In this document: piece by piece, positions 12,207 through 23,555 of the stretch | How the letters are laid out: the number at the start of each line of letters is the position of its first letter | Numbering within the stretch: the stretch's first letter is position 1 | Assembly: GCA_903824965.1 (NCBI GenBank) | Contig: CAIJYR010000085.1 | Span: 1-38,705, forward strand | Length of the DNA: 38,705 nucleotides | Reading direction: 5' to 3' | From: an uncultured Thiotrichales bacterium | GTDB taxonomy: Bacteria > Pseudomonadota > Gammaproteobacteria > CAIRSR01 | Made by a program: the position numbers and the translations under genes | Notes under the pieces: generated by a model | Told to the model about the DNA's origin: nothing | Database searches by the model: none | What the model saw: only the letters and a program-made list of their open reading frames with translations

Positions 12207-12533
12207 TTATACCTGCATGCTCATGATGTCTTGGTAGGCAGTCACGAACTTATTGCGTACTTGGGTCAAAGCCTGGAAAGAAATGTTGGCCTTTTGGGTC
12301 GCTATCATGACATCCGGCAGATCGATGCCTGGTGCTCCCCGCTCAAACGAATTGGACAAGTCACCCGCATGTGTTTGTAACTCGCTGACGGAGTCAATGG
12401 ATTGACGTAGCAGACTCGCAAAATCCTGTGGCACACCCTCCGTAGTGGGGACGGGTACTCGACTCTGGCCTTGTGCAAGGGCTGCAGCAGCACGCATCTG
12501 AACCAACAAACCATTGACATCGCTGGCGTTCAC
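12207..12533 (-). CDS. fliE: Flagellar hook-basal body protein FliE
   Basis: Small rod-junction protein that connects the MS ring to the rod. The 108-residue length is typical (Salmonella 104). The C-terminal half carries the family signature: LPDVMIATQKANISFQALTQVRNKFVTAYQDIMSMQV. The start is a GTG at 12533 with a GGGGAG ribosome site about 10 bases upstream. It is the first gene of the operon. A sigma-54-type promoter lies about 70 bases upstream, in keeping with the class of flagellar genes under sigma-54 control in polar-flagellated proteobacteria. fliF follows after 24 bases. Confidence 0.93.
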   Translation of the reverse strand: MNASDVNGLLVQMRAAAALAQGQSRVPVPTTEGVPQDFASLLRQSIDSVSELQTHAGDLSNSFERGAPGIDLPDVMIATQKANISFQALTQVRNKFVTAYQDIMSMQV

Positions 12534-12746: not shown

Positions 12747-12835
12747 CGGAGATTCTCTACTCTATGGATTGACAATACTATGGATTTACAATATTGCTAC
12801 ACACGAGAACGGCGGAGGATATCTCCGCCATAACA
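12747..12835. repeat. Tandem duplication, 3'-flank repeat, copy 1
   Basis: First copy of an element repeated at 13033-13105. It contains a hairpin with 7-bp arms (GGCGGAG and CTCCGCC, 12811-12829) and a conserved stretch on its lower-coordinate side. Copy 1 also has an internal 16-bp tandem repeat (12762-12777 and 12778-12793, one mismatch). In minus-strand reading it lies about 38 bases after the stop of the first leader-peptide gene, so it could be a transcript end or processing signal. There is no strong T-run. Confidence 0.7.
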
Positions 12836-12866
12836 AAACACGCTATCTAGGAATATCACTAATGGC

Positions 12867-12962
12867 TTAGTGTGGACTGGGGCCATGCGATGGAGGGGGG
12901 GATGTGGGAGCTCCAGACAGATGACCACTTAGGCCCGCTTTTATGCCTGTTTGGACTTTCAT
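12867..12962 (-). CDS. Putative leader-peptide gene, copy 1 (31 residues)
   Basis: Not a recognised gene. On the minus strand an AGGAG lies 7 bases before an ATG that opens a 31-codon frame. It begins MKVQTGIKAG and then has a 21-residue tail rich in Pro, Ser, Gly and His, ending in TAA. The first ten codons and at least 65 bases of upstream sequence are nearly identical to copy 2, while the tail is unrelated to it. Shared leader plus variable core with conserved flanks is the layout of precursor peptides, which is my inference. The Met-Lys-Val-x-Thr-x-x-Lys-Ala-Gly start reminds me of short hypothetical peptides in other bacteria, from memory only. Alternatives: a non-coding RNA duplicate, or chance frames. 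Confidence 0.5.
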   Translation of the reverse strand: MKVQTGIKAGLSGHLSGAPTSPPPSHGPSPH

Positions 12963-13028
12963 GATGATGCTCCTGTTGGTTGGAACGCTTAGAACAAGCA
13001 AGCAGATGGTACCTTGCGCCACGCCAGT
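12934..13028. repeat. 95-bp direct repeat, copy 1 (5' flank plus leader codons)
   Basis: Nearly identical to 13191-13284: I count one substitution and one single-base deletion. In minus-strand reading it holds about 65 bases of 5' flank, the AGGAG ribosome site, the ATG and the first ten codons of the leader peptide. Similarity ends just after the leader, where the two frames diverge. Confidence 0.93.
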
Positions 13029-13032
13029 GTAT

Positions 13033-13105
13033 CGGGGATTTTCTACTCTACGGATTTACAAGAACACTACACCCAGGAACAGCGGAGGATATCTCCGCCA
13101 TCACA
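13033..13105. repeat. Tandem duplication, 3'-flank repeat, copy 2
   Basis: Second copy of the 12747-12835 element, without the extra 16-bp unit. The same hairpin lies at 13082-13099 (GCGGAG/CTCCGC arms). In minus-strand reading it sits about 31 bases after the stop of the second leader-peptide gene. Adjacent repeats show that the whole unit of about 250-280 bp (3' flank, core and 5' flank) was duplicated in tandem. Confidence 0.7.
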
Positions 13106-13129
13106 GAAACCACTTCTTCTACGCAGACC

Positions 13130-13219
13130 TCAATGACGGGGCGCAGTTGACGGGTTGACTGTTCTGCTGCCTTGGGTAGAGCCTGGTTCTCCCGCTTTTA
13201 TGCCTGTTTGGACTTTCAT
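13130..13219 (-). CDS. Putative leader-peptide gene, copy 2 (29 residues)
   Basis: Paralogue of the frame at 12867-12962. The same AGGAG-N7-ATG leads into the identical ten residues MKVQTGIKAG, followed by a 19-residue tail rich in Ser, Thr, Pro and Arg, ending in TGA. The tail shows no clear similarity to copy 1, although codons before it and the 5' and 3' flanks are conserved. It is the upstream member if both are transcribed on the minus strand. No modification enzyme or transporter is adjacent; the nearest protease is the subtilisin-like gene at 15882. Short frames like this can arise by chance, so the main support is the paired conservation pattern and the ribosome site. Confidence 0.5.
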   Translation of the reverse strand: MKVQTGIKAGEPGSTQGSRTVNPSTAPRH

Positions 13220-13284
13220 GATGATGCTCCTGTTGGTTGGAACGCTTGGAACAAGCAAGCAGATGGTACCTGCGCCACGCCAGT
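13191..13284. repeat. 94-bp direct repeat, copy 2 (5' flank plus leader codons)
   Basis: Partner of 12934-13028, offset by 257 bases. The single-base deletion (CCTTGCG to CCTGCG) lies in the 5' flank of the minus-strand peptide. It would shift a plus-strand frame, which argues that the minus strand is the coding one. Confidence 0.93.
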
Positions 13285-13424: not shown

Positions 13425-14159
13425 TCAACCACCCGGCAGCGCAATCCCCAATTCCGCCAGGCGCACCTCCATCAGCTGCGACCAGCCCCGATTGGCTGCA
13501 GGATTCGCCGGACTTGGGTGCGGAATCATGCTCACCGTCACCGAAGTGCCTTGCAAAGCAACCGCCGCACGATCCGCCGCAAAGCGCCCCACCCCCACCA
13601 TGCGTTGTACACCCAGTATTTCAGCCATGGCCACCAAAGCACGATCACAGTGCCGAAACAAAGCCTCTCGCTCTGCGATGGGCAACTTGTCTGGTGTGCG
13701 GTTCCGTCCCGATGCTTCCATAAAGACCAGCGGACAATAATTGGCCACGAAAAAACGCTCAAAAAACCGATCCGCCGTCCCACAACGCGCACGCGCCCAC
13801 CCCCACAACCGCTGTCCACTGACCTCGTGGCGGCGACACGCAAAACCCTGCACAGGTCGCTTGGGATGCTCACAGGTAGGGTGTCCTACGGGCGCCTCTA
13901 TGCCCAACCAATCGCGCACCAAATCGACTTCCCCGAAAGGCACCCCCGTTTGGGCCATCCCAAAGGGGCCAGGGTTCATGCCCAACAACACCACCTCCTT
14001 GTGCCCTGCCCCATAGCGCGTCAGGTATTCGGCGTGGGGTGCCCAGGCATAACGCAAGGGGTTGTATACATGCGCTACAGGTGCCGCAAACGTCATGGCA
14101 TCCAAGGCCAGCGCCAATTCCTCGGCAATGTCGAACAGTGCAGCAACCGTGTTGTCCAT
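13425..14159 (-). CDS. SMUG1-type (family 3) uracil-DNA glycosylase
   Basis: Base-excision repair enzyme that removes uracil, and in this family some oxidised pyrimidines, from DNA. The 244 residues contain the SMUG1 water-activating motif GMNPGPFGMAQTGVPFGE (about 59-76) and the intercalation-loop region HPSPANPAANRGW (about 213-225), both almost identical to animal SMUG1. SMUG1 has a restricted bacterial distribution, so the gene may have been acquired by transfer. The ATG at 14159 follows the hydrolase stop by 11 bases, so the pair is probably co-transcribed. No ribosome site is obvious. Confidence 0.92.
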   Translation of the reverse strand: MDNTVAALFDIAEELALALDAMTFAAPVAHVYNPLRYAWAPHAEYLTRYGAGHKEVVLLGMNPGPFGMAQTGVPFGEVDLVRDWLGIEAPVGHPTCEHPKRPVQGFACRRHEVSGQRLWGWARARCGTADRFFERFFVANYCPLVFMEASGRNRTPDKLPIAEREALFRHCDRALVAMAEILGVQRMVGVGRFAADRAAVALQGTSVTVSMIPHPSPANPAANRGWSQLMEVRLAELGIALPGG

Positions 14160-15881: not shown

Positions 15882-17690
15882 ATGCCCACGCAACGTATCG
15901 AAGACCCTATGCGCAACCGTCCCTCCTATCGCCGATACCGTCTCGCTATTTTCGTAGTACTGGCCTTGTGCGGCATGGCTGGCATGGCGGCTGTGTGGCC
16001 TTGGCCCCTGCACGAGACCCATTCGGATGGTATCTCAGATACGATGAACGTCCTCGTCGCCCCTCCAACACCGCTTGCAAACTTTATCCACCTCCTACAG
16101 ACAGGCAGAACCACCACGATCGTGGCCAACGTCGAAGGGGGTCACGTCTGGAGTGGACACCAAACGCTTACGCACGTGAGCCAATTTGTCAACGATCCTA
16201 CCGTGCAAGACATCGACAAAAACCCACTGACCCCAGAATACGATCGCCATGCCACAGGCGTAGCCAGTGTGCTCGGAGGTCATGCTGCGCCACAGGATGC
16301 CGATCGTATCGAGTTACATTCAGGCGCGGTCGCCACGAAATGGAACGGCAAAGCCTACTCCGGCAATTTCACAACCACCCCACAGGCAGTATCGACCGCA
16401 TACGGTACCTTCTTCGGGTTTGCAGACGTGATTAACAGCAGCTGGGGAGGGCAAGACCCCAGCGGCACCTCCTTTGCAGCCCTGATCACCGATGGTTTTG
16501 CCAATCAGCATCCGCATTCTACCCTGGTGGTTTCGGCAGGCAATGCGGGGCCTGCCCCTAATACGGTGGGCGGCCCGGGGTCAGGCTATAACAACATCGC
16601 CGTGGGTGCCTTACAAAACAATGGCACAGATGTCTATGACAAAGTTGCCACTTTTAGCAGTCGTGGCCCGCAGGATTACTCCGACCCCGTCCACGGGACA
16701 GTGCCTAGCGCCCGTGCAGAGGTGGATCTCGTTGCGCCCGGTACCCACCTCACCACAGCCCATTATGGTGGACAAACCGGGGGCAACCAACCAAGCCTTC
16801 CCGGGAGCCACGGCAGCGCCGAACCCAATGCCTACCGCATGGATGTCAAAGGCACGAGTTTTTCCGCACCGGTAGTCGCAAGTGGTATCGCAACGCTGAT
16901 CGATGCCAGCAAAAACGACCCATACCTCGCCGATCACCCAGACGCACGTGATGCTCGCGTCCTCAAATCCGTTGTGCTCAACAGCGCAGACAAAATGCCA
17001 GGCTGGAACAACGGTCAAACCCCACACCCCAATGGCCTTGGCGGTGTGATCACTACCCAAGCACTCGATTGGATCAGTGGTGCGGGTGCGTTCAACCTAG
17101 ATCAAGCCTACGAGCAATACCTGCGATCCGAGACCCGTGATATTCCTGGCGTCGGAGGGGGTACCATCGGAAAAACGGGGTGGGATCAGGGACAGGTGGG
17201 CATCGGGCAAACCAATGTCTATCCTATTCGAGAGGTTCTTCCGGCCAATACGGTGCTGACCGTGACCGTGAGCTGGTTTCGGGATCGTAGCTTTGCGCCT
17301 GCGTCGATGGTTGCCGGAGAGTCCGGCCACGCCGATCTAGATCTGATCATCCGAGACACCGCAACCCGTCAGGTCGTTGCTGAATCGATCAGCCCCTACA
17401 ACGTGGTGGAACACCTGTCTTTCACGTTGCCATCTCGGTCATCCTACCAAATTGAGGTCATATACACTGGGAATCTGTTCGGACGCATTCGACAGACACC
17501 CTACGGTCTGGCTTGGATCGCCAAAGCACCCACTCAGCAAGCACATACGGTGGTGCGTCGGTGTCGCTGGTCTGCCCCCCGCCCCCTCAGCGCGGGTGAA
17601 AATCCCTCGGCACTCTGTTTCACCACCCATCGTCCCATTCGTTCTGGATCGACCCTGCTTCCTAGGGGAGGGTGGTTGGTCGCAAAATGA
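15882..17690 (+). CDS. Secreted subtilisin-like (S8) serine protease
   Basis: Exported protease of 602 residues from the first ATG; an ATG ten codons in (15909) is equally plausible. A basic N-terminus and hydrophobic segment (about 21-40) form a signal peptide or anchor. The S8 fold shows His123 (RHATGVASVLGG), the SSWGG segment, the oxyanion-hole region VVSAGNAGP (about 217-225) and catalytic Ser326 in GTSFSAP. The position of the catalytic Asp is occupied by Glu85 (IVANVEGG), 38 residues before the His. The last 60 residues, beyond GLAWIAK, are low-complexity Arg/Pro/Ser-rich and look like readthrough into intergenic sequence. Transcribed away from the parvulin gene; the target is unknown. 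Confidence 0.88.
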   Translation: MPTQRIEDPMRNRPSYRRYRLAIFVVLALCGMAGMAAVWPWPLHETHSDGISDTMNVLVAPPTPLANFIHLLQTGRTTTIVANVEGGHVWSGHQTLTHVSQFVNDPTVQDIDKNPLTPEYDRHATGVASVLGGHAAPQDADRIELHSGAVATKWNGKAYSGNFTTTPQAVSTAYGTFFGFADVINSSWGGQDPSGTSFAALITDGFANQHPHSTLVVSAGNAGPAPNTVGGPGSGYNNIAVGALQNNGTDVYDKVATFSSRGPQDYSDPVHGTVPSARAEVDLVAPGTHLTTAHYGGQTGGNQPSLPGSHGSAEPNAYRMDVKGTSFSAPVVASGIATLIDASKNDPYLADHPDARDARVLKSVVLNSADKMPGWNNGQTPHPNGLGGVITTQALDWISGAGAFNLDQAYEQYLRSETRDIPGVGGGTIGKTGWDQGQVGIGQTNVYPIREVLPANTVLTVTVSWFRDRSFAPASMVAGESGHADLDLIIRDTATRQVVAESISPYNVVEHLSFTLPSRSSYQIEVIYTGNLFGRIRQTPYGLAWIAKAPTQQAHTVVRRCRWSAPRPLSAGENPSALCFTTHRPIRSGSTLLPRGGWLVAK

Positions 17691-17711: not shown

Positions 17712-20700
17712 TTATTTTTGTAACACGATGTTCTTGATGAGTGCGCAAAAAGCGGGAAATAACTCACGTATTTTGACGGGAATGTGAAATTTACCACCGT
17801 CACTACGCAGCAGGTTGGCGAGCATCTTCTCTAGGATGGTTTCAAAACCAGCACCCTTCAGGTGGATATACATCACACTCGTGGTGGCGTCGGCGACGCT
17901 GTTTGCCATGTAACAAATGGCTGGCATCTCATCTATTGCTTGGATAATGGCATTTTCGGTGGAATTGCGTGGTTTCACATGATGATACAGGATAACATCG
18001 CAAATGCTTTTCTTGTGCCTGTGTACGCCATCGTGCTGAGGAAACCAACGCTCCCATGCGGCAGTAAAGAGGTCTGCCCCTACTTTCTGGTGGGTTAGGT
18101 ATTCGTTGAACCAAAGATTGTTTTCTTTTAGGCTGGCTCTGCTGGGGGTGAGTGCTCCACCGAAATCGATCATGCCGAGGTCGTGCCACAAACCAGACAG
18201 AGCATAGATCAACTGATCTTCGCGAGAGAGCTTTTTGTGTCTTGACCAAAATATCATCATGGCCATGACCGCGAGTGCATGGTCGAGCCAGGCTCGTTCT
18301 GGTTGTTCTTCAGGATTTTTTGGGAAACAGGATCGGAAAAGTTCCAACAACCGTTCAGGATGCTCATGCACCATTTCCAGGAATGCGTTCATGATCTCCA
18401 GGATCTGTCTCCAGCTATCCTTATAGCCAAGCCCTGTGGAGAGCGGATACTTTTCTGGAAACTCAGGGAAAGGAGCGCACAACACTTGTGACACTATCTG
18501 ACGAATGGCTTCTAAAGAACCCCATGAGAACAACTTGAACCAATCAACCTCAGAGAATGCTGCCTCATAAGGATAGCTTTCTTGCGGATTCAAGAGGTTG
18601 TTGAGATAGGCTGCTATGATCTCGCCCTCAGAAAGGCAATACGTGCTACTGTAATAAATGGGTGGCGCGGAGGCAAGTCGGTCTATCTCCAACATTCTCG
18701 GATCGATACCCATTCTGAAAGAAACAACTCCTTCTGGGAGTACGTTTACCCTGAGGTCGTGGCTTTCCTCTGGCTTGGACAATCTATTTTGTAAGAAAGC
18801 AATGCTTTCTGGTGTGAGGATGAAACCATGGATGCGGAATAGATGCTTCAAGAGAAGCAAGAACGGACGGAAGGTTCTGGTTTTTTCGTAGACCCACCCC
18901 ATATCGATTTCTGACGGAGAATCTTTTAGGATCTTGCCAGCGATGTGTAGAAATGTTGGAATATCGCTGTTCAGAAACGGAACAAAAACCATTTCTGACT
19001 CTGTGTATGCATCCTGATCTTCGAGGGTATCGGTGACGTCCAAAGAACCATCGGGCAACATTTCCGACAAAATCGACGATAGGTCACGCATGGATCGTGC
19101 TTTCGTAAGCCGCCTCTCGAAAATGGCTGTCCAGAAATCCACTTCGTTATAGAAGACTGTATCCCATACCACCAGCAAATGGGGCGTTGTTGTACGCAGT
19201 GATTCTTGTATTCTGTTGATTTCTTTTGGCCACTCTGTAGAAACGACAGACAGGCTTTCTATGACCTGCCGCGTCACAGCCACGATGTCTTTTTTGGCCA
19301 GAAGGGTCAGTAATGGGTGGTTATGAAGAGCGGTGATGAGGTCTTGTGTAGCATTCTCAAGGACAAAGAGACTCCATTTCTTGAGCGCCAGAGGCGAGAA
19401 GGGCGGAATCGCCGCATCGTGGGCAAGAAAAGGCTTGGCAGCCAGCATGTTCCTCTGTAAAAACAAACCCGCCAGGGTGATCCAACGAATATCACCGACC
19501 AAAAGATCGGTTTGGAAGTCTCCAAGGTCAACCAATTGGTTATATTTCTCATGCACAAAAGACTTTGCAAGAGAAAGTGCTTTCTGCGCTTCTAAGGTGT
19601 AGAGGAGTTCTCCCGATTTGTCTTTCATCAGCCATCCAACGGGAAGGGCAATGTTGCTGAGGATGGCTTGATCAGCGACAGACAATAGATTGATGTCCTC
19701 GGAACAAAGGCATTCTTTCTCGGAAAGCGAAGACTGCACCATCCTTTGCAAGCCTGTGAGCACTGTTAAAACAGTCGTCTTATACGTATTTCTTTCTTGC
19801 AGCCCTTCAAAAGCAGTGATTTTATCTGTCAACAATCGCATCAATTTCTGAGGTAGGATGGATCGGAAGAGTACAATATCTTTTTCAGAGGCACATCCTG
19901 TTTTGCGAAGAGACGATAAGATCGCGAACAACGTATCAAACGACGTATGTGTATCTTCTTTTTTGTCACTGAGCAAGGATGCAACTTTATGGAGCAAACC
20001 ATATGCTTCGTCAGGTGTTGCATACAAGGCAATCTCCTGTGGGTTTAACGAAGCATACACCGGATTGGAGGATACACAGGCTTTCAACGCATCCAATATG
20101 CTGACTTGCGTGATTTTACCAAGAACATTGACATACAGAGGGGTTGCTTTTTCTAGCGATACCTGTAGGTAGTCGATCAATCCTTGCGGTGAAAATCGCT
20201 GGAATACTTGGGAGCGGGTATAGGCAGTTTGTAGCGTGGTATGCTTCGCATCACGAACTACACGCATCAAAACAGGCTTGCAACGCTCCAGGGTAGGAAT
20301 GGGTAGATCTAGCAAAGTTTCTAAATACGGTCTGCGACGTACCGATTCAATAACGGCGGGTAGGAACTCTGCATCCGAATGATTGTCAAGTGCCAAGATC
20401 AAGGTACGAATGTCGTCATAGACATTGGTTTCTGGGAAATACTGGCTCATCACCGATCGTAGTTTCTTCCGATCGAACCTCTGGCGATTAGAAGCATCAT
20501 TTATAGTCCCCGCAATCTCGTAAGAGAAAACAGAGACCAGAAAAACATCCTCTGAGAAAAAGAAAGTATTCTGATAATAAAAAATGCCGATCTGCGCTGT
20601 ATGACTGACATTGGCAACCTGTGCAATGAGTTCTTCTTTGACTTGTGGGATGGAATGCTGGTCGTTAGTTATCAACAAGGAGTCGTTGATTCTCTCTTGA

Positions 20701-21575
20701 TAGTAATTGGAGAGAAAAGTGTTTCCTGTACTTGCCACAATCGCCCGTTCAGCCTCCTCTTTGGCGTTTCTGTGGGTCTCGGAAAATATTTTTGTGAACA
20801 AAGCAGCACAATACGTTGACATCTCAGGCAACACATATTTCGGATCTAATGCGTTCCACGCCATTTCCTTGAGTGCAGCTCTTAACTCATCTGTCATCAC
20901 AGGCAACGCACGCACGCTGGTTTCTGGTTCGTCCAGATCATCAAGGCTCGCAATGTATTTTGATTTTACAGGTGCTTCCAGAGATTCATCGGTGTCGGTA
21001 GCAATGGCCATGGCCATATAAGCCAACTGTATTCTTGAATAAGGAGTGCCCTCTAAGAGAGTAATTGTTTCTTTTGCTGCTTGCTCTTGTACTACGATCC
21101 TTTCTTCTGATTCAAGTTTTTTTATCTCATGATAAAATAAAGAAAATTTAACAATGCCCGAACGCAACACGATAAAATGACCGATCTCGCCCTGCTCACA
21201 TGGCGTCGACACCGCATCATCCGCAAGGATGGTATTGACTGCCTGAGCATACGTATGTTTAATCTGTGTATAATGATTTGTTCGCTTAAAAAAACCAACG
21301 GCCTCTCTCAGCATTGTCTCAGAACTCGATATTGCTCTAAAAGCAGACAGAATCGCGTGCTGGTGTTCTAGTGGGAGCCGCTCCCAGTCCTCCGCTGTGG
21401 GTGGCTCGGAACAGATACGCTGGATACACGATTGCACAGCCTTTGCCTTGGAGAGAGATGTCTCCTCTACAGAGTCCTGGCAATACATCCAATAGAGGCC
21501 AAACGATACCATGGTGGACACTTGTTGTGTCGACAAATACCTGCTTATTCCTGGCCACAACACAGCATCGCTCAT
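17712..21575 (-). CDS. Large unknown protein with C-terminal degenerate HD-GYP-like domain
   Basis: A 1287-residue protein I do not recognise over most of its length. Residues 1 to about 1090 appear mainly helical, with no signal peptide or clear TM helix. The C-terminal part (about 1095-1260) is an HD-superfamily domain: H1100 in LDHALAVMAM, HD at about 1131-1132 in GLWHDLGMIDF, HQKVGADLF near 1162, HH near 1199 in ILYHHVKP and an ANSVADATTS segment. These follow the order of HD-GYP motifs, but the GYP triplet is missing, so c-di-GMP hydrolysis is doubtful and another phosphohydrolase activity is possible. It starts 21 bases after the 652-residue gene and probably shares its transcript with dnaA. 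By eye it is AT-richer than dnaA, which suggests transfer. Confidence 0.85.
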   Translation of the reverse strand: MSDAVLWPGISRYLSTQQVSTMVSFGLYWMYCQDSVEETSLSKAKAVQSCIQRICSEPPTAEDWERLPLEHQHAILSAFRAISSSETMLREAVGFFKRTNHYTQIKHTYAQAVNTILADDAVSTPCEQGEIGHFIVLRSGIVKFSLFYHEIKKLESEERIVVQEQAAKETITLLEGTPYSRIQLAYMAMAIATDTDESLEAPVKSKYIASLDDLDEPETSVRALPVMTDELRAALKEMAWNALDPKYVLPEMSTYCAALFTKIFSETHRNAKEEAERAIVASTGNTFLSNYYQERINDSLLITNDQHSIPQVKEELIAQVANVSHTAQIGIFYYQNTFFFSEDVFLVSVFSYEIAGTINDASNRQRFDRKKLRSVMSQYFPETNVYDDIRTLILALDNHSDAEFLPAVIESVRRRPYLETLLDLPIPTLERCKPVLMRVVRDAKHTTLQTAYTRSQVFQRFSPQGLIDYLQVSLEKATPLYVNVLGKITQVSILDALKACVSSNPVYASLNPQEIALYATPDEAYGLLHKVASLLSDKKEDTHTSFDTLFAILSSLRKTGCASEKDIVLFRSILPQKLMRLLTDKITAFEGLQERNTYKTTVLTVLTGLQRMVQSSLSEKECLCSEDINLLSVADQAILSNIALPVGWLMKDKSGELLYTLEAQKALSLAKSFVHEKYNQLVDLGDFQTDLLVGDIRWITLAGLFLQRNMLAAKPFLAHDAAIPPFSPLALKKWSLFVLENATQDLITALHNHPLLTLLAKKDIVAVTRQVIESLSVVSTEWPKEINRIQESLRTTTPHLLVVWDTVFYNEVDFWTAIFERRLTKARSMRDLSSILSEMLPDGSLDVTDTLEDQDAYTESEMVFVPFLNSDIPTFLHIAGKILKDSPSEIDMGWVYEKTRTFRPFLLLLKHLFRIHGFILTPESIAFLQNRLSKPEESHDLRVNVLPEGVVSFRMGIDPRMLEIDRLASAPPIYYSSTYCLSEGEIIAAYLNNLLNPQESYPYEAAFSEVDWFKLFSWGSLEAIRQIVSQVLCAPFPEFPEKYPLSTGLGYKDSWRQILEIMNAFLEMVHEHPERLLELFRSCFPKNPEEQPERAWLDHALAVMAMMIFWSRHKKLSREDQLIYALSGLWHDLGMIDFGGALTPSRASLKENNLWFNEYLTHQKVGADLFTAAWERWFPQHDGVHRHKKSICDVILYHHVKPRNSTENAIIQAIDEMPAICYMANSVADATTSVMYIHLKGAGFETILEKMLANLLRSDGGKFHIPVKIRELFPAFCALIKNIVLQK

Positions 21576-21596: not shown

Positions 21597-23555
21597 CTAC
21601 GAAGTGCCTTTCTGGGAGTGCAGTTCCAATAGATGCTCTGTTTTACTCAGAGGACACAAGGCAGGATACACATCCTCTAAGTGTTTGCGAGCATGCATCT
21701 TCTCAAGAAGAAATACGAGGTCTTTTTCTTGTGTGTCCCTGTTGTTTTGTATCACTGCGCTGCGTAGGAAATCGTTGAGCAATATTATCGCGCGAAACTC
21801 TTCCTGTTGCATATTGTGCGTCACTTTCACCTGCGGTTCATGCCTCGTTTCTGTGGAGTGCTGTGATCGCACGGGATTGTGCATTCTCATGCCAGGAAAC
21901 CGAAAAGCATTGTATGTCAGTCTGGACAAATCAAGCTTATGCCGCCAAGGATGGTTAGAAGCAGAATCGCTACTCTGCTGCAGCATGACAGGCTGCAGCA
22001 CCTCAGGCACAGGATCTTGTACCAAGAGGAGCCATTCATCTATTCTCTTCTTCGTTTCCTTGGAGATAACATACGAAGGGTTATCCATAGCTACTTGTTT
22101 CCAAAGGGACGTCGCTTTCTGAAAATCAGAAAACTCGCTCGGAACAAAGTCTCCTGGTGAGAACAAATAGACATGAACCGGCGCATGGCCCTTGTTGATC
22201 ACATTCAGCAGCAGGATACCCTCTTTATTGTCCACGCGTATATCAAAAGGACTCATCATCTCCTCAGGTTTGCGCGTAATGAGAGAATCTTTTGATCGAC
22301 GATTGTTTGATATCACTGCCTCCGAAAAGGGCACAACTGTTTTTGTAACGCCCATGGAGAACTTTACGTCATCACGATATGCTCCCGTCCTTGTCGAATA
22401 GAATTTCAACCAGAAGAATAATTTCTCTGGCTCCGGTATCATCAAACAGAAAATAGACCCAGAATGAATGTAAGCAAAAATAAAGGGCGCATAAATCAAA
22501 GATTGATGGTTCAATTTATGCAGATCAGGCATCATCCATGGTAACTGCTCTTGCTGATGCCTCTTAGAGAATACTTCCGTAAACCCAAGAAGAGCCTTTT
22601 GGTCAGGAAAATAGGGAGGTGTAGTCGATTGTTTACTAAAAAATCCTTTTAGGGAGTCTGTGAGAACAACCTGGATACCCCCAATTACCTTACTATGCCT
22701 TTGGAGCTTTTTGGACAGTTCAGAGAGGCTTGTCTTAATGATTTCAACAGCACGCCTGATTCGATTGACACTCTCCCCAAAAGGCGTTGATGCATTGGTT
22801 TCTTCTATTTCCTTAAGAACCGATACAATGCTATCTTCTATTGATTGGATAGCAGCCACCACCGTAGCGTGCTCTTTTGTCTCAGGATCAGGCATGATGC
22901 CTGTCAGAATGAAAATCACCAGCAACAATACATCCGACAGCTGCATTGTCAGCCGTTCTGTGCCGATCGTTTCAAAGTAACGTCTGACAAAAACTCTTAG
23001 CACCTCAAAATATATCTCTTCGTGTCGCTTCCAGAAAACATCCCCTAACCTACCCTCCATCTTCCTCACTGTGGTTGGTTCTTCAGTACTCTGCAACGGT
23101 GGGCACACCACTACAAAATCATCGTACTCCTCTAACATCCCCAAACGTATTACAGCACGCTTGATGGCTTGCATCTCTTCTGGCAGTGGCAGTGTTTCTC
23201 TATCAGCAACAGCTTTGTAACACGCTATTTTCCTGAACGAATCTTCTATTCTTGGAAGAAACTTGGGTAAAAATGTAAATTTCTGCGATTTCCTAAGACT
23301 GACGACCAGGCTCACATACACATTAGAATTGCTTGTAATGAGATCAAAAGCAGGTCTCTGATTCTTTGGTAACAGATTCTGATCTTTGTTGTATAAATCG
23401 TAATAATGTTGGAATTGTTTCCCTACATTGATGCTCGTGTTGATCTTCGCCAACGCAAAAAGAATACTCAACTCGGTACGACTGAGTCGTATCGAGCCAT
23501 CAGTATATGCTTCCCATGCTGATTTAATAAGAGGAGTTTCTTCTTCAGAAGTCAT
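21597..23555 (-). CDS. Unknown 652-residue protein downstream of dnaA
   Basis: Not recognised. It is soluble in appearance: no signal peptide, and the only hydrophobic stretch (LSDVLLLVIFILTGIMP) is too short and kinked for a confident TM helix. The first half is helical with many charged residues. The middle (about 325-480) looks like alternating beta strands (SLIYAPFIFAYIHSGSIFCLMIP, GILLLNVINKGHAPVHVYLFSPGDF). The C-terminus is polar. The ATG has a GGGGTG ribosome site and lies 20 bases after the dnaA stop. Spacing and shared AT-rich composition tie it to the 1287-residue gene; the two probably act together, but no function can be given. Confidence 0.85.
   Translation of the reverse strand: MTSEEETPLIKSAWEAYTDGSIRLSRTELSILFALAKINTSINVGKQFQHYYDLYNKDQNLLPKNQRPAFDLITSNSNVYVSLVVSLRKSQKFTFLPKFLPRIEDSFRKIACYKAVADRETLPLPEEMQAIKRAVIRLGMLEEYDDFVVVCPPLQSTEEPTTVRKMEGRLGDVFWKRHEEIYFEVLRVFVRRYFETIGTERLTMQLSDVLLLVIFILTGIMPDPETKEHATVVAAIQSIEDSIVSVLKEIEETNASTPFGESVNRIRRAVEIIKTSLSELSKKLQRHSKVIGGIQVVLTDSLKGFFSKQSTTPPYFPDQKALLGFTEVFSKRHQQEQLPWMMPDLHKLNHQSLIYAPFIFAYIHSGSIFCLMIPEPEKLFFWLKFYSTRTGAYRDDVKFSMGVTKTVVPFSEAVISNNRRSKDSLITRKPEEMMSPFDIRVDNKEGILLLNVINKGHAPVHVYLFSPGDFVPSEFSDFQKATSLWKQVAMDNPSYVISKETKKRIDEWLLLVQDPVPEVLQPVMLQQSSDSASNHPWRHKLDLSRLTYNAFRFPGMRMHNPVRSQHSTETRHEPQVKVTHNMQQEEFRAIILLNDFLRSAVIQNNRDTQEKDLVFLLEKMHARKHLEDVYPALCPLSKTEHLLELHSQKGTS

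Follow-up and report, generated by a model that had tools for sequence, protein, structure and literature searches.

The C39 proteases known so far cleave behind GG, GA or GS. One of them, LahT150, reads hydrophobic residues at positions -4, -7 and -12, all inside a stretch of 13 residues, and 13 residues of leader suffice for it (PMC6363468). In the NHLM export systems, HlyD, an ATP-binding cassette (ABC) transporter with a C39 peptidase domain (C39-ABC) and a second ABC subunit (ABC2) serve precursors with NHLP or Nif11 leaders (Haft et al. 2010, PMC2887384). In Synechococcus elongatus, efficient secretion of the small proteins EbfG1-4 needs the cysteine of the peptidase transporter PteB, with a role in biofilms rather than as bacteriocins (PMC4997328). 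Here we describe two tandem tiny genes, A and B, in a stretch of 38,705 nt from an uncultured Thiotrichales bacterium (contig CAIJYR010000085.1; the whole stretch is the window, its genome G000). A and B are probably precursors of secreted peptides, from which a 10-residue leader ending in Ala-Gly would be cut while the cores are exported by a dedicated C39 exporter.

The leader family and its probable C39 exporter

Both window genes open with MKVQTGIKAG. The family to which this leader belongs follows the pattern M[KV][VI][KQ]T[GDN][VIL][KRH]AG, after which come 4-30 variable residues, and comprises 13 genes in four genomes: three in G000, three in Rhodoferax lacus, six in G035 (another genome of the same class) and one in a Syntrophobacterales metagenome-assembled genome (MAG). 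A strict search with a degenerate pattern for MKV[KQ]TGIKAG over 257 Gb, for which 0.02 matches are expected by chance, gave three loci in two genomes (two in R. lacus, one in the MAG), all of which open a short open reading frame (ORF) with its own core; G035 was reached by a slightly wider pattern run on relatives. Searches for such starts, which the original prediction had proposed for the genome and its relatives, together with a reading of the loci yielded 11 further genes. In R. lacus, G035 and the MAG the motif has different flanks and codons, always with a start codon and mostly with a ribosome-binding site. Since the amino acids were set by the search pattern, the finding that only synonymous differences separate the window from R. 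lacus does not enter as independent proof of coding; that case rests on how the number of matches compares with chance and on the exporter link described below. The relaxed pattern gave three matches in 40 exporter-less control genomes, all inside longer frames and without a ribosome-binding site.

The G035 locus holds six leader genes in tandem, each preceded by AGGA(G/A):

Gene 1: MKVKTDVHAG-RTHVKIA
Gene 2: MKVKTDVKAG-FIKF
Gene 3: MKVKTDIRAG-DLPWLR
Gene 4: MKVKTDVRAG-DLPMF
Gene 5: MKVKTDVHAG-RTHVKITSSSPYGPSSPY
Gene 6: MKVKTDVRAG-MKLPT

Some of these ORFs have just 14-17 aa. Their tails group into related sets (RTHVKI... and DLP...), suggestive of a turnover of cores in which copies are made and then altered. 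The intervals between the tandem genes (L005 6600-7500) repeatedly contain a palindrome around GCAGGTTACAAACCTGC, with a similar one upstream of the G035 exporter (L047 250-320); this may be a dispersed hairpin repeat.

The predicted cores of R. lacus are QHGLEGVRITNKRPTGKGGV, SHGVEGVRSHPRPVGKGA and AGQKRKSSTDSTSVETVSVPVVPVSRCAGI; its third leader gene, in the exporter locus, opens with MKIQTNLRAG. Over the whole family the cores are mostly hydrophilic (G/P/S/T-rich) and largely unrelated to one another, with lengths of 4-30 residues; several have only 4-7 residues, and Cys is absent from most. Given this hydrophilic character, a reading as membrane-active type I toxins was rejected. The toxic peptides offered as one possibility in the original prediction have so far found no support. 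Neither a Pfam or NCBIfam match to the peptides nor an NHLP or Nif11 leader on the precursors was obtained even at E 10, where very short peptides limit sensitivity. Open-licence literature searched for the motif strings returned no paper, and plasmids searched with the peptide queries gave weak matches only (E 5-10), the one in Fischerella falling at the end of an annotated coding sequence.

In the MAG the peptide gene lies directly upstream of the exporter genes, in the order peptide, HlyD, C39-ABC (a peptidase-containing ABC transporter, PCAT) and ABC2. The MAG C39-ABC (919 aa) carries Peptidase_C39 and ABC domains, and ABC2 has 713 aa. Full-length homologues of this C39-ABC occur at 47-49% identity in R. 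lacus, G035 and G000 (G000 versus G035: 56%). Each of the four peptide-bearing genomes has a matching ABC transporter whose C39 domain is intact. The active site Q/C/H/D is conserved in all four, the domains retaining QTSxMDCGPA, the THF histidine and the MDP aspartate, and the DCGP active-site motif is absent from the aligned ABC2 subunits. The membrane and ABC parts of the exporter align to PCAT1 (4ry2).

The G000 exporter locus (L046, G000:C138:8000-27500) lies on a contig other than the window's and encodes an OEP channel, a 192-aa protein without a Pfam match that occupies the adaptor position, the C39-ABC (896 aa) and ABC2 (713 aa). The third leader gene of G000, with the product MVVKTGVKAGGNKPAKN, is located between C39-ABC and ABC2 on the opposite strand, behind a GAGGAG site. 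The earlier remark that no maturation enzyme is adjacent to A and B is true locally, whereas genome-wide there is this C39 peptidase/exporter. The R. lacus locus additionally contains a LuxR-type response regulator, a histidine kinase, a 621-aa protein, the third leader gene and an OEP gene. The 621-aa protein (L048 14113-15978, plus strand), directly before the leader gene and beside the exporter, has no Pfam, PADLOC or PDB sequence match; it was rejected as a common maturase, as the other three genomes lack it.

Exporter and leader occur together. Among 369 genomes of the class scanned with the G000 C39-ABC, only G000 and G035 carry it, and the strict peptide pattern picks the same two only (p = 1.5e-5). 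Among 399 genomes of the R. lacus order and 395 of the MAG's phylum, the C39-ABC is found in the query genome only, and five peptide-less relatives gave generic ABC matches only. The MAG is not counted as a test of the link because it supplied the exporter hypothesis. R. lacus, G035 and G000 were reached via the peptide alone, and all three carry this otherwise very rare exporter. Its distribution is patchy, the sampled genomes of the same genus and family lacking it, which suggests horizontal spread; some relatives may have escaped the E-value thresholds and strict patterns. At the level of genes, the relatives and the dedicated peptidase-exporter support the initial proposal of secreted-peptide precursors with a constant leader and variable core. 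Of the co-occurring genes that it had suggested looking for, the C39-ABC exporter tracks the leader, and no modification enzyme was found near the window pair or in the scanned exporter loci.

Two other C39 proteins were encountered. G000 encodes a second, different C39-domain protein (L050, G000:C94:17851-18207; open frame 1061 aa), which scores more strongly against the Pfam C39 model and is far from the peptide-linked C39-ABC clade. A C39-ABC-like protein on the Piscinibacter gummiphilus plasmid NZ_CP136338.1 (L070), a distant relative of the exporter at 36% identity with a DUF692 iron protein and MoeB as neighbours, is taken as belonging to a different system; the same locus encodes a 57-aa hypothetical protein with LKAKVNVKLGPIPF, which loosely resembles the leader motif.

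Comparison with double-glycine and NHLM systems

Leader positions 9-10 are A and G in 13/13 genes, with an extra G that would give GG in only two. With a cut after AG, position -4 is V/I/L in 13/13, as required of C39 substrates, with a hydrophobic V/I at -8, a basic K/R/H at -3 and nothing past -10. In common with the double-glycine AMS/PCAT leaders (LahT150, ComA, PCAT1) are thus the hydrophobic -4 and the small residues at -2 and -1, together with an active N-terminal C39 domain on the ABC exporter. AG stands in place of GG/GA/GS, however, Leu at -7 and a -12 residue are missing, and the entire 10-residue leader is shorter than the 13 that suffice for LahT150 (PMC6363468).

With NHLM the system shares a three-gene exporter in which only one of the two ABC subunits has a peptidase, precursor genes that lie partly away from it, and a constant leader before a variable core. 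NHLP/Nif11 leaders are long, whereas the present leader has 10 residues and ends in AG, and the MAG proteins miss the cut-offs of the NHLM models (TIGR03796, 170.5 versus 853.3 bits for the first ABC subunit; TIGR03794, 51.8 versus 156.2; TIGR03797, 93.2 versus 709.4). The EbfG1-4/PteB system is likewise found in a Gram-negative host and has several small secreted proteins (secretion is predicted from the genes here), whereas EbfG has a GG motif. The present system resembles C39/PCAT or NHLM export, its exporter being a distant relative of both, and it appears to be a variant of C39/PCAT peptide export not described before.

The two cassettes of the window

On the minus strand, two cassettes of 257-270 bp each lie between a uracil-DNA-glycosylase-family gene and fliE. 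Both are laid out alike. An AGGAG site precedes an ORF that opens with the leader and continues into a core with a separate stop codon, and a palindromic hairpin follows:

12207-12533, fliE
12811..12829, hairpin 3′ of A, GGCGGAG-ATATC-CTCCGCC on the minus strand, without a U-tract
12867..12962, minus strand, precursor gene A, MKVQTGIKAG-LSGHLSGAPTSPPPSHGPSPH, 31 aa, coordinates include the stop
12933..12962, minus strand, leader of A, 10 codons, ends Ala-Gly, proposed C39 recognition and cleavage leader
12963..13028, minus strand, conserved 5′ flank of A, AGGAG at 12970-12974
13082..13099, hairpin downstream of B
13130..13219, minus strand, precursor gene B, MKVQTGIKAG-EPGSTQGSRTVNPSTAPRH, 29 aa, coordinates include the stop
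13190..13219, minus strand, leader of B, 10 codons
13220..13284, minus strand, conserved 5′ flank of B, AGGAG at 13227-13231
13425-14159, uracil-DNA-glycosylase-family gene

In both ORFs the spacing from AGGAG to the start is 7 nt. The longest repeat (D1, 81 nt, 99% identity) pairs 12934-13014 with 13191-13271, and two more (D2, 73 nt, 78%; D3, 35 nt, 83%) surround the hairpin. Segment alignment of the copies gives 68/73 identical bases for the 5′ flank, 29/30 for the leader DNA and 84/100 for the 3′ flank, each beating 300/300 shuffles, whereas the cores (21 residues in A, 19 in B) show no likeness beyond that of shuffled sequence (252/300 shuffles score equally well). Alignment thus recovers the duplicated unit of the original prediction, with its repeats, AGGAG-N7-ATG, hairpin, conserved flanks and leader, and diverged cores; the diversifying selection read from it is not supported over replacement of the core after duplication.

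The hairpin of copy A has a 7-bp stem and the loop ATATC. Only these two sites occur in the window (0.07 expected), and the hairpin regions fold better than shuffles (z -3.4 and -2.9). A role as an intrinsic terminator is unsupported since the U-tract is absent. Searches against Rfam and of viral contigs gave no match, and the DNA of the entire cassette unit, searched in relatives, matches in its own genome only.

Elsewhere in the window, a subtilase gene (Peptidase_S8, 602 aa; 15882-17690, plus strand) lies near the peptide genes and stands in divergent orientation to a PpiC-type rotamase gene. A 1287-aa protein (17712-21575, minus strand), whose sole Pfam domain is a C-terminal HD, adjoins a 652-aa protein (21597-23555, minus strand) with no Pfam domain; neither matches in NCBIfam or PADLOC.

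Alternative explanations and a proposed route of export

Several points weigh against a reading of A and B as precursors for C39 export. In the window, conservation of the leader does not exceed that of the non-coding 5′ flank. The AG end fails the GG/GA/GS feature of the double-glycine class, and of two positions that matter in LahT150, -7 is K/Q rather than Leu and -12 does not exist. Most precursor genes lie far from the exporter, and the system is present in only four genomes within the searched data. Because the 5′ flank is conserved almost equally, the window alone does not prove protein-level constraint on the leader, and by itself could fit a recent duplication or gene conversion in which the core was exchanged; the evidence for the leader as a protein feature comes from the relatives. 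Another reading is a non-coding RNA or mobile hairpin repeat, in which the DNA cassette from 5′ flank to hairpin matters and the ORF is incidental. The conservation of flank and hairpin as DNA and the folding of the hairpin regions agree with this idea, but the amino-acid motif recurs in R. lacus, G035 and the MAG with other flanks and codons, stands behind a start codon each time and tracks the peptidase-exporter, and Rfam is silent, which renders it very improbable.

We give hardly any credence to regulatory leader peptides (attenuators or upstream ORFs), the translation of which would control a downstream gene. The ORFs are very short, some in the G035 array having 14-17 aa, and most lie beside unrelated genes away from the exporter, as expected for such peptides; attenuator logic is reversed, however, where the N-terminus stays constant and the C-terminus varies, six copies stand in tandem at one place, and the neighbours differ per genome with C39-ABC as the common partner. 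True precursors of ribosomally synthesized and post-translationally modified peptides (RiPPs), where the leader also guides a trans-encoded enzyme that modifies Ser/Thr/His/Gly/Pro-rich cores before C39-ABC export, are unlikely. The conserved leader with its variable core, which the original prediction read as a possible RiPP pattern, and the NHLM-like exporter layout are typical of RiPPs, and the R. lacus 621-aa protein sits between exporter and leader gene, but that protein is peculiar to one genome, several cores are very short and most lack Cys. No modification enzyme was recognised near the window pair or among the proteins of the scanned exporter loci of G000, G035 and the MAG, a location in trans being conceivable.

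For the preferred reading, C39 export of A and B, we infer translation, cleavage position, export and core activity from the genes. MKVQTGIKAG would serve as a minimal export and cleavage leader; the C39 peptidase domain of this exporter clade would recognise such a shorter leader and cut after Ala-Gly. The exporter would pair the active C39-ABC with an ABC subunit that lacks the C39 active site, joined by a HlyD-type adaptor and an outer-membrane channel of the OEP family. It would act mostly in trans, from contig G000:C138 in the present case, with release of the variable cores of A and B to the medium via adaptor and channel. New cargo would arise by duplication of the cassette and replacement of the part behind the leader. 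Short, mostly hydrophilic, unrelated cores fit a tolerant exporter, and we lean towards their use in signalling or competition, as signal or antagonistic peptides. It is also possible, though rather doubtful, that Gram-negative bacteria possess a separate minimal secretion code, in which the 10-residue tag [KV]-[VI]-[KQ]-T-x-[VIL]-[KRH]-A-G after Met alone suffices for cleavage and export of freely interchangeable 4-30-residue peptides by a dedicated two-subunit C39 exporter, possibly for peptide signalling.

If a leader of 10 residues does work, the smallest tag known for peptide export becomes shorter, C39 leader recognition so far being known to reach back to -12. This would also explain why such precursors, as ORFs of 14-40 aa mostly away from their exporter, have been overlooked, and short peptides could be given a small secretion tag in Gram-negative hosts. 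The G035 cores of 4-7 residues lead one to ask whether Gram-negative bacteria use very short ribosomal peptides as signals.
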